Below, one piece after another: positions 21,943 through 29,105 of a DNA stretch of 33,387 nucleotides; position 1 is the stretch's first letter; every line of letters starts with the position of its first letter. Position numbers and translations under genes: made by a program. Below the pieces are notes generated by a model. It did not search any database. It worked only from the letters and a program-made list of their open reading frames with translations, and was not told where the DNA came from. Origin of the DNA: Archaeoglobus sp. (GTDB lineage Archaea > Halobacteriota > Archaeoglobi > Archaeoglobales > Archaeoglobaceae); contig JACDNU010000030.1 in the NCBI GenBank assembly GCA_017656505.1, forward strand, positions 1 through 33,387, read 5' to 3'.

Positions 21943-22521
21943 CTAGAAGATCTTCTTTGCAACCTCCACCGATTCTTTGTCGAAGATAACCAGAGCCACC
22001 TCATTTACATTCGAAGCTTTCTCCGAGAAATCCCTTACAGCCTCAATAAAGGTTTTAACTACCTCTTCAAGCGGACAGCCATAAATCCCTGCGCTTACCG
22101 CTGGAAAGGCAATAGAATTAAGCTCTAGTTCCTCTGCTTTATCCAAAGGCCCCTTGAATGCTTTGTAGAGCTTATCCTTAAACGAGTCATCCCATTTCCC
22201 GCTGCATATTGGGCCAACGGTATGGATAACGTACTTTATGCCCCGATCCTCAAGCTTCATTGCCGGCGTAACAACAACCTCTCCATGGTCTATGTAACTC
22301 CTGCCTATCTGCTGTTTCATCGCTTCCTTGCTTATCCTCGTGTATTCAGCAGCATTTCCAGCGCATGCCTTTGCTATGGCATAAGCAACTCCTCCACCAT
22401 GCTCCAAATGCTTATTTGCCGCATTGACAATAGCATTCGCGGGATAAGCTGTGATGTCCCCCTGCACAAGCTTCACCGAAATCTTACCAACCTTGATCTC
22501 CTTCACTTCCTCCACAGCCAT
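21943..22521 (-). CDS. Macro-domain ADP-ribose-binding protein (Af1521-like)
   Basis: This 192-residue protein is a single macro domain that binds ADP-ribose and may remove it from proteins. Key parts are QGDIT (Asp22, adenine contact), IVNAANKHLEHGGGVA (residues 31-46, the distal-ribose and catalytic loop), the phosphate loop AVSAGIYG (141-148) and VIHTVGPICSGKW. It matches the A. fulgidus prototype Af1521 over its whole length, from memory, including AIAKACAG, SYIDHGEVVVTPAM and YKAFKGPL. A TATA-like GATTTAAC (near 22542-22549, minus strand) is about 25 bases before the ATG, so it is probably leaderless. It is divergent from the gene at 22633, with a 13-base tandem repeat between their promoters. 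Confidence 0.93.
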   Translation of the reverse strand: MAVEEVKEIKVGKISVKLVQGDITAYPANAIVNAANKHLEHGGGVAYAIAKACAGNAAEYTRISKEAMKQQIGRSYIDHGEVVVTPAMKLEDRGIKYVIHTVGPICSGKWDDSFKDKLYKAFKGPLDKAEELELNSIAFPAVSAGIYGCPLEEVVKTFIEAVRDFSEKASNVNEVALVIFDKESVEVAKKIF

Positions 22522-22632: not shown

Positions 22633-23031
22633 ATGAAGGTTAAAGAAGCTCCGAAAACGGCCACAAGCATAATCGTTCGATCTGCTTCTGCAGCAAGAAT
22701 TACGCAGTCGAAAAATCCGTTCCTCGAGCTCATGAGAAGGCTTTTCAGGAAAGAAGATGTAGCGATGAAGGCTATAAAGTTCATCAACATAATCGATGAA
22801 AGGCAGAAAGCTGGTAAGCCTGTTAGAGTTGATGAATGGGAGAGTTTGATGGAAGAGCTTAGAATGGTTCGTTCCTCTTTCTATTCCATGAGAAACAAGC
22901 TTTTGGGCGCGGGGATGATTTCTGTAAAGGATGGAGAATATCGCCTCAGCGGGGTCTTCAGCAGGGATCTCGTCGATATGGCGAGATGGTGGTGGACAGC
23001 AGTACTGGGTTACGATCCCGAATCCTTGTAA
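22633..23031 (+). CDS. Hypothetical protein with helix-turn-helix-like C-terminal half
   Basis: I do not recognise this 132-residue protein. The first 30 residues are basic and Ser/Ala-rich; the middle is helical ([21 protein letters not shown]). The part [40 protein letters not shown] reads like a winged helix with a recognition helix [16 protein letters not shown] and a wing (KDGEYRLSG), as in archaeal regulators. It ends with [15 protein letters not shown], where three consecutive Trp are striking. It is divergent from the macro-domain gene, with a 13-base tandem repeat between them that it could bind; this is inference. Confidence 0.65.
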
Positions 23032-23137
23032 CCCTCTATTTTAATTAATTACTTAAATTAATAAGATTATAAACCAAACTATTCATAAAAGAGGAAAATT
23101 TAAGTCTTTTCGATGCAAACTGAGTAGGGGGATGGGC

Positions 23138-23482
23138 ATGAAAAAGGTGGTTGTTATTGGTTGCGGAGCTTATATGGACTCGGGCTATGGATGTCCGGGA
23201 GAGTGGAGGTGTCTGAAAGCAGCAGCCCTCGGAGATGGAAAATTTGATGAGGCTTCAAGCGTTGTATCTTTCGTGAAGTGTGAATGCCCGGGACGGACAA
23301 TTCTGCCAAATCTGGGAATGGCGATGCAGCTATCGGGAATTAAGCCAGACGCAATATACCTAAGCTCTTGTTTGGTTAATGCTGTGCCAAAGTGTCCCTA
23401 TGGTACTGCTGAGGAATTTGCTAAGCTCATAGAAGAGAAAACTGGAATTCCTGTTGTGCTTGGAACCCACGATTACCACTAG
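23138..23482 (+). CDS. CGGC-domain protein (Cys-rich, putative metal-binding)
   Basis: This protein of about 114 residues belongs to the CGGC family of small putative metal-binding proteins of unknown function. It has a short strand KVVVIGC and seven Cys, in VIGCGAYMDSGYGCPGEWRC, KCECPGRT, SSCLVNAVPKCPYG (residues 9, 19, 25, 48, 50, 78, 86 counted from the chosen start). The layout suggests a flavodoxin-like fold with a metal or cluster site. ATG also occurs at 23132, but the AGGGGG ribosome-binding site (about 23126-23131) is correctly spaced only for 23138. A TATA-like AATTTAAG lies near 23097-23104. It has no obvious functional partner in the window. Confidence 0.75.
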   Translation: MKKVVVIGCGAYMDSGYGCPGEWRCLKAAALGDGKFDEASSVVSFVKCECPGRTILPNLGMAMQLSGIKPDAIYLSSCLVNAVPKCPYGTAEEFAKLIEEKTGIPVVLGTHDYH

Positions 23483-23575: not shown

Positions 23576-23626
23576 TAAAACAAAAATGTATTATACTTCC
23601 AAACCAACCCAATTAATGGTGATAAA

Positions 23627-24727
23627 ATGGTAGAGGAGGTTTCTGATATAAAAGAAGGCCTATCCAGGGTTTTACCTTTAATATCAAAAAAATCAAGCGC
23701 AATAGATAAGAATAATGAAATGTATTCTGATGTCCTTCAGGCTCTTTTCGATAATAAGCTAATGTCCATTCTCGCTCCAAAAGAGTATGGGGGATTTGAG
23801 AGTTACTATCTCGCTTGTTTAGTTGCTGAATCAGTTGCAAAGATTAATGCCGGTGTGGCCCATTCAGTTGTTGTTCATAACGCAACCGTCGATGCTCTCA
23901 GGCTTTTCGGCACTGCTGAGCAGAAGGAGAAGTGGTTGCCGAAGCTCAAAAAGAAAGCTGGAACTCTCGCTATGACCGAACCTTCGGGTGGAAGTGATGT
24001 TTCAGCGTTAAAAATGGAGGCTAGAAAGGAAGGAGATGTTTACATCCTGAACGGAAGGAAAACGTTGATAACGAACGCATCCTTTGGAGGTGTCTTCATC
24101 GTGATAGCAAAAACAGAAGAGGGGTTAACGGCCTTTATCACCGAAAAAGATGGAGTTGTTGTTACAAAGCTCAATCAATCGGGAATGCGTGGGAGTGGAT
24201 TGTCTTCAGTCGGATTCTCAAATGTTGAGGTTGCAAAGGAGGACATCCTCGGTGGTTTGGGGAAGGGATTGAAAGTTGCGCTTGGAACGCTCTCGCCAAA
24301 CAGAATTCCTTTCGCAGCAATGGGTCTCGGAATCGCTGAAACTTGCTTGGAATCAGCTATAAAGTATGCAAAAGGTAGAACAGCTTTCGGAAAGAAAGTT
24401 GCAGACTTCCAAGGAATCCAGTGGATGATTGCAGAACTCGCCACAGAGATCGAAACTCTCAGGAGTTTCATTTACAATTCAGCAGAGATTGCCGATGGAA
24501 AAGAATCTTCGTTAGATGTTACAACGCTCGGTGCAATGTGCAAGCTGAAAGCGGCAGAGATTGCAAAGAAAGCTGCAGAGATGGCAGTTGAGATATACGG
24601 TGGGCATGGGGTGATCGTAGGCTCTCCAGTTGAGAGAGCATACAGAGACGCGAAGCTTTTGGACATCGCAGAAGGGACGTCTGAGATAATGAAGGTTTTG
24701 ATCTCGAGAACCATTCTTGGGAGGTGA
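23627..24727 (+). CDS. Acyl-CoA dehydrogenase
   Basis: This 366-residue FAD enzyme oxidises an acyl-CoA to the 2-enoyl-CoA and passes electrons to an electron transfer flavoprotein. Marks are LAMTEPSGGSDVSALK (flavin and substrate contact), RGSGLSSVGFSNVEV, FGKKVADFQGIQWMIAELAT and the C-terminal IYGGHGVIVGSPVERAYRDAKLLDIAEGTSEI in which Glu349 (EGTSEI) is the catalytic base of the short/medium-chain type. Length is a little short (usual 380-400) because the N-terminal helix is brief. The ribosome-binding site is GGTGA ahead of the ATG. The stop lies inside the GGAGGTGA site of the next gene. Chain-length preference cannot be read from sequence. Confidence 0.92.
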   Translation: MVEEVSDIKEGLSRVLPLISKKSSAIDKNNEMYSDVLQALFDNKLMSILAPKEYGGFESYYLACLVAESVAKINAGVAHSVVVHNATVDALRLFGTAEQKEKWLPKLKKKAGTLAMTEPSGGSDVSALKMEARKEGDVYILNGRKTLITNASFGGVFIVIAKTEEGLTAFITEKDGVVVTKLNQSGMRGSGLSSVGFSNVEVAKEDILGGLGKGLKVALGTLSPNRIPFAAMGLGIAETCLESAIKYAKGRTAFGKKVADFQGIQWMIAELATEIETLRSFIYNSAEIADGKESSLDVTTLGAMCKLKAAEIAKKAAEMAVEIYGGHGVIVGSPVERAYRDAKLLDIAEGTSEIMKVLISRTILGR

Positions 24728-24731
24728 AGAC

Positions 24732-26567
24732 TTGACCAGTCCGCCGAAAGAATTCATGAGAAGGATCAAACCATTTTCCTTTCTGACTGAGGATGAACTC
24801 AATCTTTTGGTCGATAATCTTGATGTTGAGGCTTACGAAAAGGGAAGCACGATAGTAAAGAAAGGTAAGCAATCCAAATATATTTTTCTAGTCTTTTCCG
24901 GAGTTGTTGGACTCTATGATGACGACACACTCGTCGATACAGCTTCGAAGGGTGAGATTTTTGGTATTCTCTCAGCTATAACTGGAAATCCATTCTCCCT
25001 CTCCGCAATAGCTATGGACGATACGATATGCTACAGAATTAAAAAAGAGGCATTTAATAAGGTATTCGAGAAAAATCCGAAATTCTCAGCTTTCTTCAGC
25101 ACTTTCATAAACAGGAGGTTCAGATCCTTCACAAATCTGCTTAAAGAAACTGAGGGGGCATTTCAGGAAGAGATATACCTTACAAGGGTAAAAGAGATCG
25201 TCACGAAAGATCCGGTTGTCTGCGAGCCAAATACCTCCATCGAAGAAGCTGCAAGGATAATGCTGGAGAAGAACGTTGGATCGATAGTTGTGGTCGATCA
25301 GGGCAAGGCTGTTGGCATACTCACGGATCACGATTTGAAGAGGGTTCTCATCTCCGGCGACAAAAATGCGAAGGTTACGGAATTCATGAACTCTCCTGTT
25401 ATAACCGTTAATGCCGACCAGCCAGTTTTCGAAGCTTATCTGACGCTGATAAACAAAGGGATCAATTACATAGTCGTTGTCGATAATGGAAGGGTTGAAG
25501 GAGTTATAACGAGCAAGGATATCTTAACTCAATTCGAGCCAAGCTCTTCTCTGATCGCCTTATACAGGAAGATCAGAAAGGCAAACTCGATGGATGAACT
25601 AAAAAGCCATCTTGCTGGAATAAGGAAAGCTGTAGCTGGACTGGCAATGAAGGGTGTGCATTTCTACGAGCTTAGCAGGATGATAACCTCCGTTTACGAT
25701 TCAACGGTCGTTAGAGTTATCAAAATGGTAGAAGAGGACTTCAAAAAAGATGGCATAACACTCCCAGATTATGTGTGGATTCACGTTGGCAGCTCGGGTA
25801 GAAAAGAGCAGATTATCGCAACCGATCAGGATAACTGCCTTATTCGTAGCGCCGATGAAGATGAAAAGCTGATGATTGAATTTGCTAAAAAAGTGAACGA
25901 GGCTTTGGATTACATTGGAATTCCAAAATGCACAGCTAACTACATGGCTTCCAATCCAAAATGGAACTTAAGCCTCGAAGATTGGAAGGCAAATTTCGAG
26001 AAATGGTTCACTTCCCTTACCGGAGAGAACATAAGATATCTCTCTGTTTTTCTTGATATGAGACCCATTTATGGAGATCAAAAGCTTTATCTCGCTTTGC
26101 TCGACCACATCAAAAGTAACATTACCAATCAAGCAATAAGGTTCCTTGCCCTTGACGCGACATCCATCGAGCCACCGATAGGTTTCTTCGGTATCAAGGG
26201 ACTCGAAAAAGGCCTTGACATAAAGCTCCACGGAATATATCCCATAGCCAATGGAGTTAGGGTTCTAGCTTTGGATAACAAAATTTTGGATACAACCAAC
26301 ACTAGGGAAAGGTTAGAGAGGCTAAGTGAGATGGGTGTTTTGAGTGATGAGAGGGCTCGAGAAGTCTTGGAAAGTTATGAGTTCCTTCAGGAGCTGAGAT
26401 TAAAGCGCCAGTCTGCAGCTGTCTCGGCTGGCAGTGAGGGGGATAACGTGATAAGACTCGAAAATATTGACAGAATTGATGCATACGTTTTGAAGGAAGC
26501 TTTGAAGATAGTTTCATCTTTCCAGAATTTTATAAGGGGTAAATACAGAATTGAAAGCGGGTTCTAG
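24732..26567 (+). CDS. Cyclic-nucleotide-binding / CBS / DUF294 nucleotidyltransferase-like sensor protein
   Basis: This protein of about 611 residues is a multi-domain cytoplasmic sensor (COG2905 type). In order: a cNMP-binding-like beta-roll (about 10-125), two CBS domains (VCEPNTSIEEAARIML... near 163-210 and VITVNADQPVFEAYL... near 222-268) that bind adenyl nucleotides, a DUF294 nucleotidyltransferase-like domain with GSSGRKEQ (353-360) and the acidic pair in TDQDN (365, 367), and the DUF294 C-terminal helical domain. A TTG at 24717 is also in frame, but GGAGGTGA (24719-24726) is correctly spaced for the TTG at 24732. It sits four bases after acyl-CoA dehydrogenase and eight before a DnaQ-like exonuclease. 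In bacteria the same protein type occurs beside this exonuclease and an acetate-type symporter, as here. Confidence 0.88.
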   Translation: MTSPPKEFMRRIKPFSFLTEDELNLLVDNLDVEAYEKGSTIVKKGKQSKYIFLVFSGVVGLYDDDTLVDTASKGEIFGILSAITGNPFSLSAIAMDDTICYRIKKEAFNKVFEKNPKFSAFFSTFINRRFRSFTNLLKETEGAFQEEIYLTRVKEIVTKDPVVCEPNTSIEEAARIMLEKNVGSIVVVDQGKAVGILTDHDLKRVLISGDKNAKVTEFMNSPVITVNADQPVFEAYLTLINKGINYIVVVDNGRVEGVITSKDILTQFEPSSSLIALYRKIRKANSMDELKSHLAGIRKAVAGLAMKGVHFYELSRMITSVYDSTVVRVIKMVEEDFKKDGITLPDYVWIHVGSSGRKEQIIATDQDNCLIRSADEDEKLMIEFAKKVNEALDYIGIPKCTANYMASNPKWNLSLEDWKANFEKWFTSLTGENIRYLSVFLDMRPIYGDQKLYLALLDHIKSNITNQAIRFLALDATSIEPPIGFFGIKGLEKGLDIKLHGIYPIANGVRVLALDNKILDTTNTRERLERLSEMGVLSDERAREVLESYEFLQELRLKRQSAAVSAGSEGDNVIRLENIDRIDAYVLKEALKIVSSFQNFIRGKYRIESGF

Positions 26568-26575
26568 GTGGTGGA

Positions 26576-27190
26576 ATGAATCTCAGAGAGGCGAAATTCT
26601 CCGTTATAGATCTGGAAACAACGGGCTTAAACCTTCTGAAAGATGAAATCCTCTCTATTGCCATAGTTCCGATGAAAGGAACGAAAATCATGGCGGGTGA
26701 GAGCTATTATACCTTCGTCAAGCCATCAAACTACGATCTCAAGTCTATGAAATTTCACGGAATTGACCCCAAAACGCTAAAACAAGCTCCCAGTTTTTCT
26801 GAGATTTCAGAAGAGGTGAGAGAGAGGATCGAGGATAGTATAATAGTCGGTCATGCAGTTGAAATTGACTTGAATTTCCTTAAAAAGGCATTCAAAGCCC
26901 AAGGCATTGAGCTGAATAATAAAAGCATAGATATAGCTCTGCTTGAAAAATGGCTGTGTGATAGGCTTGGAGAGAGAAAATGTACGGCAGATTTAAGCTT
27001 AGACGCTTTGATAAGGGACTATAACCTCAGTATGAGGTTCAGACACGACGCTCTGGCTGATGCCTTTCTAACAGCGCAGATATTCCAGATTCAGTTGCTG
27101 AAGCTCATGAAGTATGGCTTAACTTCGGTAGAAAGGGTGCTCTCAGCTATCGAATCTACAAAAATGAGTCGAATTGACTTTATCTTTTAG
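26576..27190 (+). CDS. DnaQ-like 3'-5' exonuclease (DEDDh family)
   Basis: This 204-residue protein is a stand-alone exonuclease domain like the proofreading subunit of bacterial DNA polymerase III. ExoI is IDLETTG (Asp12, Glu14), ExoII is VGHAVEIDLNFL (Asp98), and ExoIII is RHDALADA (His157, Asp162), the complete DEDDh metal set, so it should be active. It also has the usual HGIDPKTLKQAPSF loop. Archaeal replicative polymerases proofread themselves, so this enzyme is more likely in RNA or nucleotide metabolism or tied to the sensor protein encoded upstream. The start ATG follows GGTGG. The T-rich sequence after the stop probably ends the transcript. Confidence 0.88.
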   Translation: MNLREAKFSVIDLETTGLNLLKDEILSIAIVPMKGTKIMAGESYYTFVKPSNYDLKSMKFHGIDPKTLKQAPSFSEISEEVRERIEDSIIVGHAVEIDLNFLKKAFKAQGIELNNKSIDIALLEKWLCDRLGERKCTADLSLDALIRDYNLSMRFRHDALADAFLTAQIFQIQLLKLMKYGLTSVERVLSAIESTKMSRIDFIF

Positions 27191-27237
27191 CAATTTTTAA
27201 ATTATTTAATGTTTGCAAGGCGAAAGAAATAGAAAGA

Positions 27238-27245
27238 TTTAAATT
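27238..27245 (+). promoter_or_regulatory. Promoter of symporter gene pair
   Basis: TTTAAATT lies about 45 bases before the ATG at 27286. Transcription from about 27267 would leave a short leader carrying the GAGGTGATG ribosome-binding site. Confidence 0.55.
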
Positions 27246-27285
27246 TGTAATTATTTTTCCATATATTGGTGAATGAGGTGATGAA

Positions 27286-27498
27286 ATGCCATGGCCACCT
27301 AAAATATTTTGGGTAGGGTTGATACTATACTACGGCTTCGTAGCGATTTGCTGGATTGGCGAAGCGACTGCAGGATGGAACCACATACCTTTGGCGGTAG
27401 AGTTGTACGCAGCGTTGCTGGGAACGTGGATTATACCACTGATAATGTCGGTGATATACTTCTACTTCCCAGAAAAAGCAGAAGAGGCATCGGGGTGA
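27286..27498 (+). CDS. Small two-helix membrane protein, likely symporter small subunit
   Basis: This 70-residue protein has two hydrophobic segments (about 8-26 and 38-60) around a short hydrophilic turn (GEATAGWNHIPLAVELY) and a charged C-terminus. It begins MPWPPKIFW. It lies five bases before the Na+/solute symporter gene. Bacterial acetate-type symporters are often preceded by a small two-helix protein (DUF485 or DUF4212 type), and position and architecture fit, but I cannot assign it to either family by sequence. The likely role is assembly or stability of the symporter. Confidence 0.7.
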   Translation: MPWPPKIFWVGLILYYGFVAICWIGEATAGWNHIPLAVELYAALLGTWIIPLIMSVIYFYFPEKAEEASG

Positions 27499-27503
27499 TA
27501 TAA

Positions 27504-29105
27504 ATGGCGGATCCAATTGTTGTTGGAATAACAGTTCTGTATTTCGTGGCCATAATCGTCATTGGCTGGTATTCGAGAGTTAGAATGAAAAGTGCCACCG
27601 ATTATTATGTTGCCGGAAGGCAGATTGGTAGCGTTGTTAACGGTTTGGCTCTGGAATCAACCTACCTAAGCCCCGCCTCAATGCTAGGTTTGCCGGCCTA
27701 TGTCTTCATAATAGGCTATCAGTTCTGGTGGGCAATGGCGGCTATTATTGCAGGAATGCCTATAGCAACCTTGCTTACAGCTGCTGCGATGCGAAAGTAT
27801 GGGCCTACAAGCTTCGCTGACTACTATGCAGATAGATATAACGACCAGAACCTCAGATGGCTGGTGGGAATAATAGTCATATTCGGCGCGATTCTGTACA
27901 TCACGCTGTCCATCGTTGGTATGGGCATATTCCTGCTGGCGATCCTGAGATTCCCGTACCTCTACGGCGTCATTCTGGGAGCAGTAATAGTCATGATCTA
28001 CGTTGTCTTCGGCGGTATGGTTGCTACAAGTTGGAATGCAGCATTCCAGGCTGTGCTGATGACAATAGCAGCAGTCATTGCAGCAATAGGAATCATAAAT
28101 TATTTCGGAGGGCTAGGACCCTACCACATGGCAATACTCGAGAACAACCCGAAGTTCTTCAACACCCCCTCTGATATCGAACCGAGCCATATCTACGCTG
28201 CCACATGGCTCGCTGTCATAGGCTGGTTCTTTGTCTGGCACTACGGCTTTGCGACGATGCCTTACACGGTCGTCAGATTCTTCACCGTCATGGACATGAA
28301 AACAGCGAGAAGGAGCATCTTCTGGTGCACCCTCTTTGCAGGCATCTTCTACCTAGGCCTCGAAATCATTGGTGCTGGAGCTAAAGTTATAATCGAGAAG
28401 GCTCACCCGCTAGTTTTGCAGGGGACGGTTCCGGCGAATGCGGTTAAAGTCCTTGCATACTATGCCAAGACATACGGTGTTGGAACCGTAACAGACTATT
28501 CAATGGTCGCGGCAGTCGAGGCTTTGCAGAATCCGTGGGTCCTTGGAATACTTTGCGCTGGAGGTTTGGCTATTGCGATGTCAACTGCTGCCGGCTGGGT
28601 TATGGTCGTGAATGTCATCGTTACGAGAGACTGGGCCGACATGATGCTTAGAAGCAAATTCGCAAAGGAGAACCCGATCCTCATGGCGAGGATAATCTCA
28701 GTGATCTTCCTTGCGATAGGCTTAGTTATTGCCATCAACCCGCCTGCCTTGGTGCTTGACCTTTCTGGATGGGCGTTCGTCGTGATCATAGCATCCATTG
28801 GCCCGAGCTTAGTCCTTGGCCTGTGGTGGAAAGGAGCTACTAGAACCGCAACTTGGGTTACAGCTGTAATAATGTTCGTCCTCCACTTGTATGCATGGTT
28901 ATACGCGAAGTTCACCCTCGGCAAGCCACACTTCTTCTTCCTTAACACAGCTCTAGGACTTAGCAAGACTGCCATCGTAACTCCGCATCAGGTATGGGCG
29001 ATTCCATTAGGATTCCTGTTGTTCATCGTGATCTCTCTGGTCACAAAGAAGCCCGAGCCAGAAGTGGTGGAGAAATACTGCGTACAGCTGACAGAAAAGC
29101 TCTAA
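27504..29105 (+). CDS. Sodium:solute symporter, acetate/carboxylate type (SSS family)
   Basis: This 533-residue membrane protein has 13 or so hydrophobic segments and the SSS pattern: SATDYYVAGRQIGSVVNGLALESTYLSPASMLGLPAYVF near the N-terminus (sodium and substrate region of TM1), ADYYADRY, VFGGMVATSWNAAFQAVLM, TMPYTVVRFFTVMD and IAMSTAAGWVMVVNVIVTRDW. These match ActP-like symporters for acetate or other short monocarboxylates, and the VC_2705-like subfamily seen beside CBS/DUF294 proteins. The upstream small membrane protein and the upstream sensor and exonuclease genes support that assignment. Import of acetate, propionate or pyruvate would suit the acyl-CoA and C3/C4 enzymes in the window. 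The substrate is not proven by sequence. Confidence 0.9.
   Translation: MADPIVVGITVLYFVAIIVIGWYSRVRMKSATDYYVAGRQIGSVVNGLALESTYLSPASMLGLPAYVFIIGYQFWWAMAAIIAGMPIATLLTAAAMRKYGPTSFADYYADRYNDQNLRWLVGIIVIFGAILYITLSIVGMGIFLLAILRFPYLYGVILGAVIVMIYVVFGGMVATSWNAAFQAVLMTIAAVIAAIGIINYFGGLGPYHMAILENNPKFFNTPSDIEPSHIYAATWLAVIGWFFVWHYGFATMPYTVVRFFTVMDMKTARRSIFWCTLFAGIFYLGLEIIGAGAKVIIEKAHPLVLQGTVPANAVKVLAYYAKTYGVGTVTDYSMVAAVEALQNPWVLGILCAGGLAIAMSTAAGWVMVVNVIVTRDWADMMLRSKFAKENPILMARIISVIFLAIGLVIAINPPALVLDLSGWAFVVIIASIGPSLVLGLWWKGATRTATWVTAVIMFVLHLYAWLYAKFTLGKPHFFFLNTALGLSKTAIVTPHQVWAIPLGFLLFIVISLVTKKPEPEVVEKYCVQLTEKL

Follow-up and report, generated by a model that had tools for sequence, protein, structure and literature searches.

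Why an exonuclease gene lies in a row with genes for a putative nucleotide sensor, a solute symporter and an acyl-CoA dehydrogenase is the question raised by a locus of Archaeoglobus sp. that we analysed within a 33,387-nucleotide stretch of DNA, hereafter the window (source genome G000, family Archaeoglobaceae, 2.52 Mb in 95 contigs). A preliminary description had placed five genes there in a row, and open reading frames together with Pfam confirmed all of them at the positions given: an acyl-CoA dehydrogenase (ACAD), a cNMP/CBS/DUF294 protein, a DEDDh exonuclease, a two-helix membrane protein and a sodium:solute symporter (SSS). This arrangement is far beyond chance. The module is archaeal, as had been claimed, its DUF294 protein being 85% identical to a protein of 'Archaeoglobus sp. 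JdFR-27' (L062). To our knowledge, the DUF294-exonuclease pair has no known biochemical function, and none was reported in the literature searched.

The DUF294 gene (24732..26567, + strand) encodes a 611-aa protein in which cNMP_binding, two CBS, DUF294 and DUF294_C domains follow one another in one chain, all above the Pfam cut-off and in the same order as in bacterial relatives. The ORF caller had chosen TTG 24717 as its start; because the ribosome-binding site GGAGGTGA lies at 24720..24727 (+ strand) and the relatives in alignment A1 start at TTG 24732, the latter was adopted, which puts the gene exactly four bases past the ACAD stop, the distance originally noted. Energy sensing by this protein is plausible from its CBS and cNMP domains. 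The nucleotidyltransferase (NTase) motif GS...DxD...D is intact (G353, S354, D365, D367 and D442), and GSxxRxEQ, TDQDN and D442 are conserved among the relatives in A1. The tested NTase residues are conserved in every intact form, the conservation of D365 and D367 in bacterial loci being partly built into the search pattern. No solved structure of a DUF294 domain was found by sequence. When the structural model (pLDDT 87, pTM 0.64) was compared with the PDB, the top three matches were GlnE adenylyltransferase domains, over approximately 400 residues, and DrrA was within the first ten. The protein thus resembles GlnE and GlnD in its NTase and helical C-terminal domain; in contrast to them, it carries cNMP and CBS sensors in front, lacks an HD or second NTase domain, has no known client and is only ~11-14% identical.

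Taken by itself, the modelled fold speaks more for nucleotidylyl transfer to a protein than for RNA tailing. A GlnE/GlnD-like DUF294 domain might accordingly add AMP or UMP to a protein client, which could be the symporter, an acyl-CoA enzyme or even the exonuclease; the DEDDh enzyme, as a phosphodiesterase, might take it off again, in the manner of the HD domain of GlnD. The GlnE matches, the conservation of both active sites and the near-constant pairing of the two genes agree with such a cycle; we nevertheless regard it as unlikely, since the exonuclease is closest to DinG, PolC and epsilon enzymes and we know of no DnaQ-type enzyme that acts on protein-NMP.

The exonuclease gene (26576..27190, + strand) encodes a 204-aa protein of the DnaQ/RNase_T type that matches PF00929 with E=9e-26. 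It had been called a complete DEDDh enzyme, and D12, E14, D98, H157 and D162 are indeed all in place, so that 3'-5' exonuclease activity is predicted. Its model (pLDDT 93.6) has the DinG, PolC and epsilon exonucleases as nearest structures. The window enzyme shares fold and catalytic residues with DnaQ/PolC/DinG-type enzymes, whereas it differs from them in standing alone, in being tied to a sensor gene and in that these archaea yielded no other enzyme of the RNase_T type. Among 22 Archaeoglobaceae genomes scanned, RNase_T was present in 15 and absent in 7, and DUF294_C was present and absent in exactly the same genomes (Fisher p=6e-6, not corrected for relatedness). Furthermore, all 21 RNase_T matches in these genomes, including both of those in the window genome, adjoin a DUF294-type gene. 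This exclusivity together with the shared presence and absence indicates that the exonuclease is not a general housekeeping enzyme in Archaeoglobaceae, and the idea that a housekeeping exonuclease reached the locus by accident was rejected on this basis.

Variation in the enzyme was seen among 80 bacterial and archaeal loci. The Exo II aspartate (D98) is replaced by glutamate in 26 of the 80 exonucleases (L091, L080, L077 and 23 others), mainly from Vibrio, Marinomonas and Actinomycetota, and activity may be altered in these proteins. Near bacterial DUF294-symporter operons, some exonucleases are long and have the RNase_T domain at their C-terminal end. Upstream of it, a PAS-type region was detected in most of eight such proteins (over the cut-off in some, weaker in others), accompanied by faint kinase-like remnants; in one of them, inspection by eye showed two hydrophobic segments at the N-terminal end. 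The genes of these proteins lie next to those of response regulators and histidine kinases. In particular, four sensor-like PAS-type proteins in which a C-terminal exonuclease replaces the kinase (L055:9664-11640, L061:11637-13700, L118:12323-14458 and L138:367-2523) adjoin both response regulators and DUF294-symporter operons.

In each of 20 regions taken from 20 Archaeoglobaceae genomes, the exonuclease gene directly neighbours a DUF294-type gene. The 80 further loci were picked by a short DUF294 motif, a choice blind to the exonuclease, and form an uneven set, skewed towards Vibrio, Marinomonas and Pontibacter. The exonuclease lies directly before or after the DUF294 gene on the same strand in 63 of them, or 64 when L108 is counted, whose exonuclease is hidden by a GC-rich overlapping frame; gaps are mostly -8 to +13 bases. 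A long exonuclease was present within the flank in a further seven loci, and none was found nearby in nine, two of which are cut by a contig end. By comparison, a symporter of any tested kind occurs in the flank of 31 loci and a high-scoring acetyl-CoA synthetase in 14. The pair is therefore the core of the conserved neighbourhood and the symporter its looser part; with 20/20 regions and 64/80 loci, the neighbourhood extends well beyond this genome, which settles the survey proposed at the outset in favour of conservation. Adjacent pairs occur in at least 11 phyla: Aquificota, Acidobacteriota, Bacteroidota, Nitrospirota, Thermodesulfobacteriota, Actinomycetota, Pseudomonadota, Chloroflexota, Campylobacterota and Myxococcota as well as archaea, and in Bacillota on a plasmid. 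The trees of the two proteins have their main clades in common, one of them a Bacteroidota clade whose exonuclease genes precede the DUF294 genes, and their pairwise distances correlate (r=0.88, 80 pairs), to which common ancestry by itself would contribute a part. None of the 80 loci contains a fusion of the two; three longer DUF294 proteins have a second cNMP domain instead. Recent transfer from bacteria was rejected, as the exonucleases of archaea group in a single clade (support 100/98); the archaeal DUF294 proteins are one side of a weak branch (support 71). An old acquisition of the pair, in either direction, is possible from these trees.

A second, paralogous locus of acetate type in the window genome (G000:C14:27000-45000; L052) separates the functions that the window protein combines. 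Besides an acetyl-CoA synthetase, an ActP-like symporter and an exonuclease, it encodes two partial versions of that protein: DUF2a, a CBS protein that retains an intact NTase, and DUF2b, a cNMP/CBS protein that has lost the NTase motif. Nine such split loci were examined (L052, L053, L194-L199 and L202). In the eight that are complete, DUF2b is without the GS/DxD motif and DUF2a keeps it, and in all eight the exonuclease adjoins DUF2b on the strand of DUF2b; this dyad is oriented opposite to DUF2a in L196, L197, L198 and L053. At the remaining locus, L202 of genome G002, DUF2a, the symporter and the synthetase are kept, whereas neither DUF2b nor its exonuclease is present on a contig that extends ~5.7 kb further, and the whole genome has one RNase_T gene. 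As G002 is a draft, the two genes are likely, though not certainly, missing. It is therefore the sensor half, and not NTase catalysis, that the exonuclease tracks.

This distribution bears on both catalytic readings. In a GlnD-like system the removing enzyme is expected to go with the active modifying enzyme; here it accompanies the NTase-dead half and, in G002, is absent although an intact NTase remains, which weakens modification and demodification of a protein client rather than excluding it, as both halves otherwise lie in one cluster. The preliminary description had proposed that DUF294 makes a nucleotide or RNA tail that the exonuclease removes; in a related version, the product would be a small nucleotide messenger that the exonuclease degrades. 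An NTase fold and a 3'-5' exonuclease in one unit would suit this proposal, and cNMP and CBS domains of other proteins bind nucleotides. It lost ground, however, because the exonuclease stays with the half that has lost its NTase motif and because some DUF294 proteins whose tested NTase residues are intact have no exonuclease next to them; with protein nucleotidylyltransferases as the nearest folds in addition, we judge it distinctly improbable.

The genes around the pair vary yet stay within carboxylate and acyl-CoA chemistry. ACAD lies beside it in three genera (g1, g9 and g13); in L044, two family III CoA-transferases, an acetyl-CoA-synthetase-type ligase and an AMP-binding ligase follow it, and L041 has a matching ORF pattern; at the split locus, the partner is acetyl-CoA synthetase. 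The recurrence of these neighbours supports the acyl-CoA link suggested earlier. A histone-deacetylase-type gene was also observed beside the symporter in one relative (L041:12158-12979, - strand); AcuC, of the histone-deacetylase class, acts on acetyl-CoA synthetase in Bacillus. In V. cholerae, acs-1 may lie beside a pair of the DUF294-exonuclease type, which the literature searched did not confirm.

The resemblance to bacterial acetate-symporter loci, stated previously, is borne out by a Pseudomonas operon (PMC9927547) and by annotated plasmid loci. In P. putida, PP_0354 and PP_0353 form an operon linked to MxtR/ErdR, and their P. aeruginosa homologues adjoin actP and yjcH (PMC9927547); the P. 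fluorescens homologue Pflu5625 belongs to the CrbS/R regulon (PMC5715377). PP_0354-PP_0353 and PA3232-PA3235 (actP), of the MxtR/ErdR (CrbS/R) regulon, have a DUF294 protein followed by an RNase_T exonuclease, as here, and in P. aeruginosa a symporter of the SSS family and a small membrane protein are encoded next to the pair, as in the window (PMC9927547; L058), where the pair is likewise adjacent with a symporter nearby. The window locus differs in being archaeal, in having ACAD in front, in having behind the pair a small protein for which tests showed no relationship and a symporter with its own promoter-like block, and in a protein identity of ~23-27%. The pairing in Pseudomonas and its place in an acetate regulon are already known, and the most fitting view of the window locus is an archaeal version of this bacterial gene pair, which is known but still uncharacterised. 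The open-access literature searched contained no paper on the breadth of the pair, its exclusivity in these archaea or its split form, and none joining DUF294, acetate and a symporter.

Deletion of PP_0353 or actP-I slows growth of P. putida on pyruvate, whereas deletion of PP_0354 does not; mRNA degradation was raised by the authors as a speculation (PMC9927547). Such differing phenotypes, and recurrent SSS, acetyl-CoA synthetase, ACAD and CoA-transferase neighbours, could mean that sensor, exonuclease and transport genes are neighbours through growth on acetate-like substrates, with no direct mechanism between sensor and exonuclease. We consider this improbable: the link of DUF294 to the exonuclease is much stronger than that to the symporter (64 against 31 of 80), the pair persists in bacteria where no carboxylate or acyl-CoA genes were found nearby and in reversed order in the Bacteroidota clade, and at split loci the exonuclease is inverted or absent jointly with the sensor half.

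The reading that we favour, tentatively, is a nucleotide-sensor-gated exonuclease serving carboxylate and acyl-CoA metabolism. The cNMP/CBS/DUF294 protein would be a cytosolic nucleotide sensor, with the exonuclease as its dedicated partner and output. We propose that the exonuclease is bound by the sensor and gated by adenine- or cyclic-nucleotide levels; the gated enzyme would trim or degrade nucleic acid, most likely RNA, and thereby adjust carboxylate uptake and acyl-CoA metabolism, while the GlnE-like NTase domain might determine which state the complex adopts or modify a client protein. Four lines of evidence favour gating: the adjacency of the pair combined with RNase_T exclusivity; the split loci, where the exonuclease keeps to the NTase-dead cNMP/CBS half, shares its inversion at four of them and, in G002, is absent together with it; the long bacterial exonucleases, whose PAS-type sensor regions in same-type loci suggest an exonuclease used as an output domain; and the P. 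putida phenotypes, in which loss of the exonuclease, not of DUF294, resembles loss of actP-I (PMC9927547). On the other side stand the nine loci without a nearby exonuclease, and the silent DUF294 mutant also fits independence of the two proteins (PMC9927547). Conservation of the tested residues in all intact forms suggests that NTase catalysis matters too, to which gating gives a secondary role. Somewhat more speculatively, the pair may represent a widespread, undescribed signalling route, archaea included: a cyclic-nucleotide/CBS sensor would control an exonuclease dedicated to it, targeted nucleic-acid turnover would tune uptake and activation of small carboxylic acids, and, in the archaeal split form, a pseudo-NTase would have become the exonuclease scaffold. 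The recurrence of the pair in archaea and bacteria, often close to genes for uptake and activation of acetate-like acids, points to a control circuit with a chemistry that is now testable. Archaeoglobaceae offer a clean case, with the exonuclease only beside the sensor and intact NTase naturally separated from the sensor half, and the puzzle of an exonuclease in an acetate locus can be answered with a few purified proteins and P. putida KT2440 deletions.

The symporter (27504..29105, + strand; 533 aa) belongs to the SSS family (PF00474 E=2e-50), as described. Its further designation as acetate-type is inference only, because the best NCBIfam models all score below cut-off: TIGR03648 (VC_2705 family; 194/321 bits), to which it is closest, and the ActP models (TIGR02711, 124/1099 bits). 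Directly before it, a 70-aa two-helix membrane protein of the MPWPPK family is encoded (27286..27498, + strand; alignment A3), an order reminiscent of VC_2705-type (DUF4212 and SSS) and ActP-type (DUF485 and SSS) pairs, from which the window genes differ in a symporter under both cut-offs and in a small protein without clear DUF4212/DUF485 homology. By itself, the small protein matched neither Pfam nor NCBIfam; the best Pfam result for its family was DUF4212 (E=0.04, 3/13 members), and profile comparison with DUF4212 and DUF485 did not show homology (hhalign probability 3.4 and 1.3), so that membership in either family is unsupported. Among 197 sampled genomes it occurs only in Archaeoglobaceae, in 14 genomes, all of which have the fused DUF294 type, linked or unlinked; G032 has the pair without it. 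It lies beside the SSS gene even when unlinked from the pair and is a probable symporter accessory protein. Both genes lie beside the pair in most of the 20 Archaeoglobaceae regions, are divergent in L041, L042 and L044, and are not nearby in L038, L046, L047 and L051.

The ACAD gene (23627..24727, + strand) encodes 366 aa with three Pfam ACAD domains over cut-off (PF00441/02770/02771). Its gap to the DUF294 gene is -4 to +34 bases in nine genomes of three genera, which agrees with the proposed co-expression of these two genes. Its extension to symporter and ACAD as one unit was weakened by a 30-bp block with a BRE/TATA-like core 5' of the small-protein gene (27227..27256, + strand), near-invariant in eight genomes, and by the divergent or unlinked symporters of other genera; a single five-gene operon as the simplest reading was rejected on these grounds. 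The block, present also in G005, where hundreds of kilobases separate the small-protein and symporter genes from the pair, is probably the promoter of these two genes, and a regulator may bind it, as its conservation exceeds what a core promoter needs. A search with the block gave one site per genome at ≤3 mismatches in six genomes, with no regulon seen. A separate conserved element, an A-tract and TATTATA 5' of the ACAD gene (23582..23595, + strand; five-genome alignment within the genus), is promoter-like. With an element before each, there are probably two units, ACAD-DUF294-exonuclease and small protein-symporter, and read-through is possible.

Three further genes lie upstream. A CGGC-domain protein is encoded immediately 5' of the ACAD gene (23132-23482; Pfam scan). 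The 132-aa product of 22633-23031 has no Pfam match, is ~94% conserved in the two nearest relatives, above its neighbours, and is possibly a small DNA-binding regulator. A putative macro-domain protein, identified by eye, is encoded at 21943-22521 (- strand) and is also found at the locus in two relatives.
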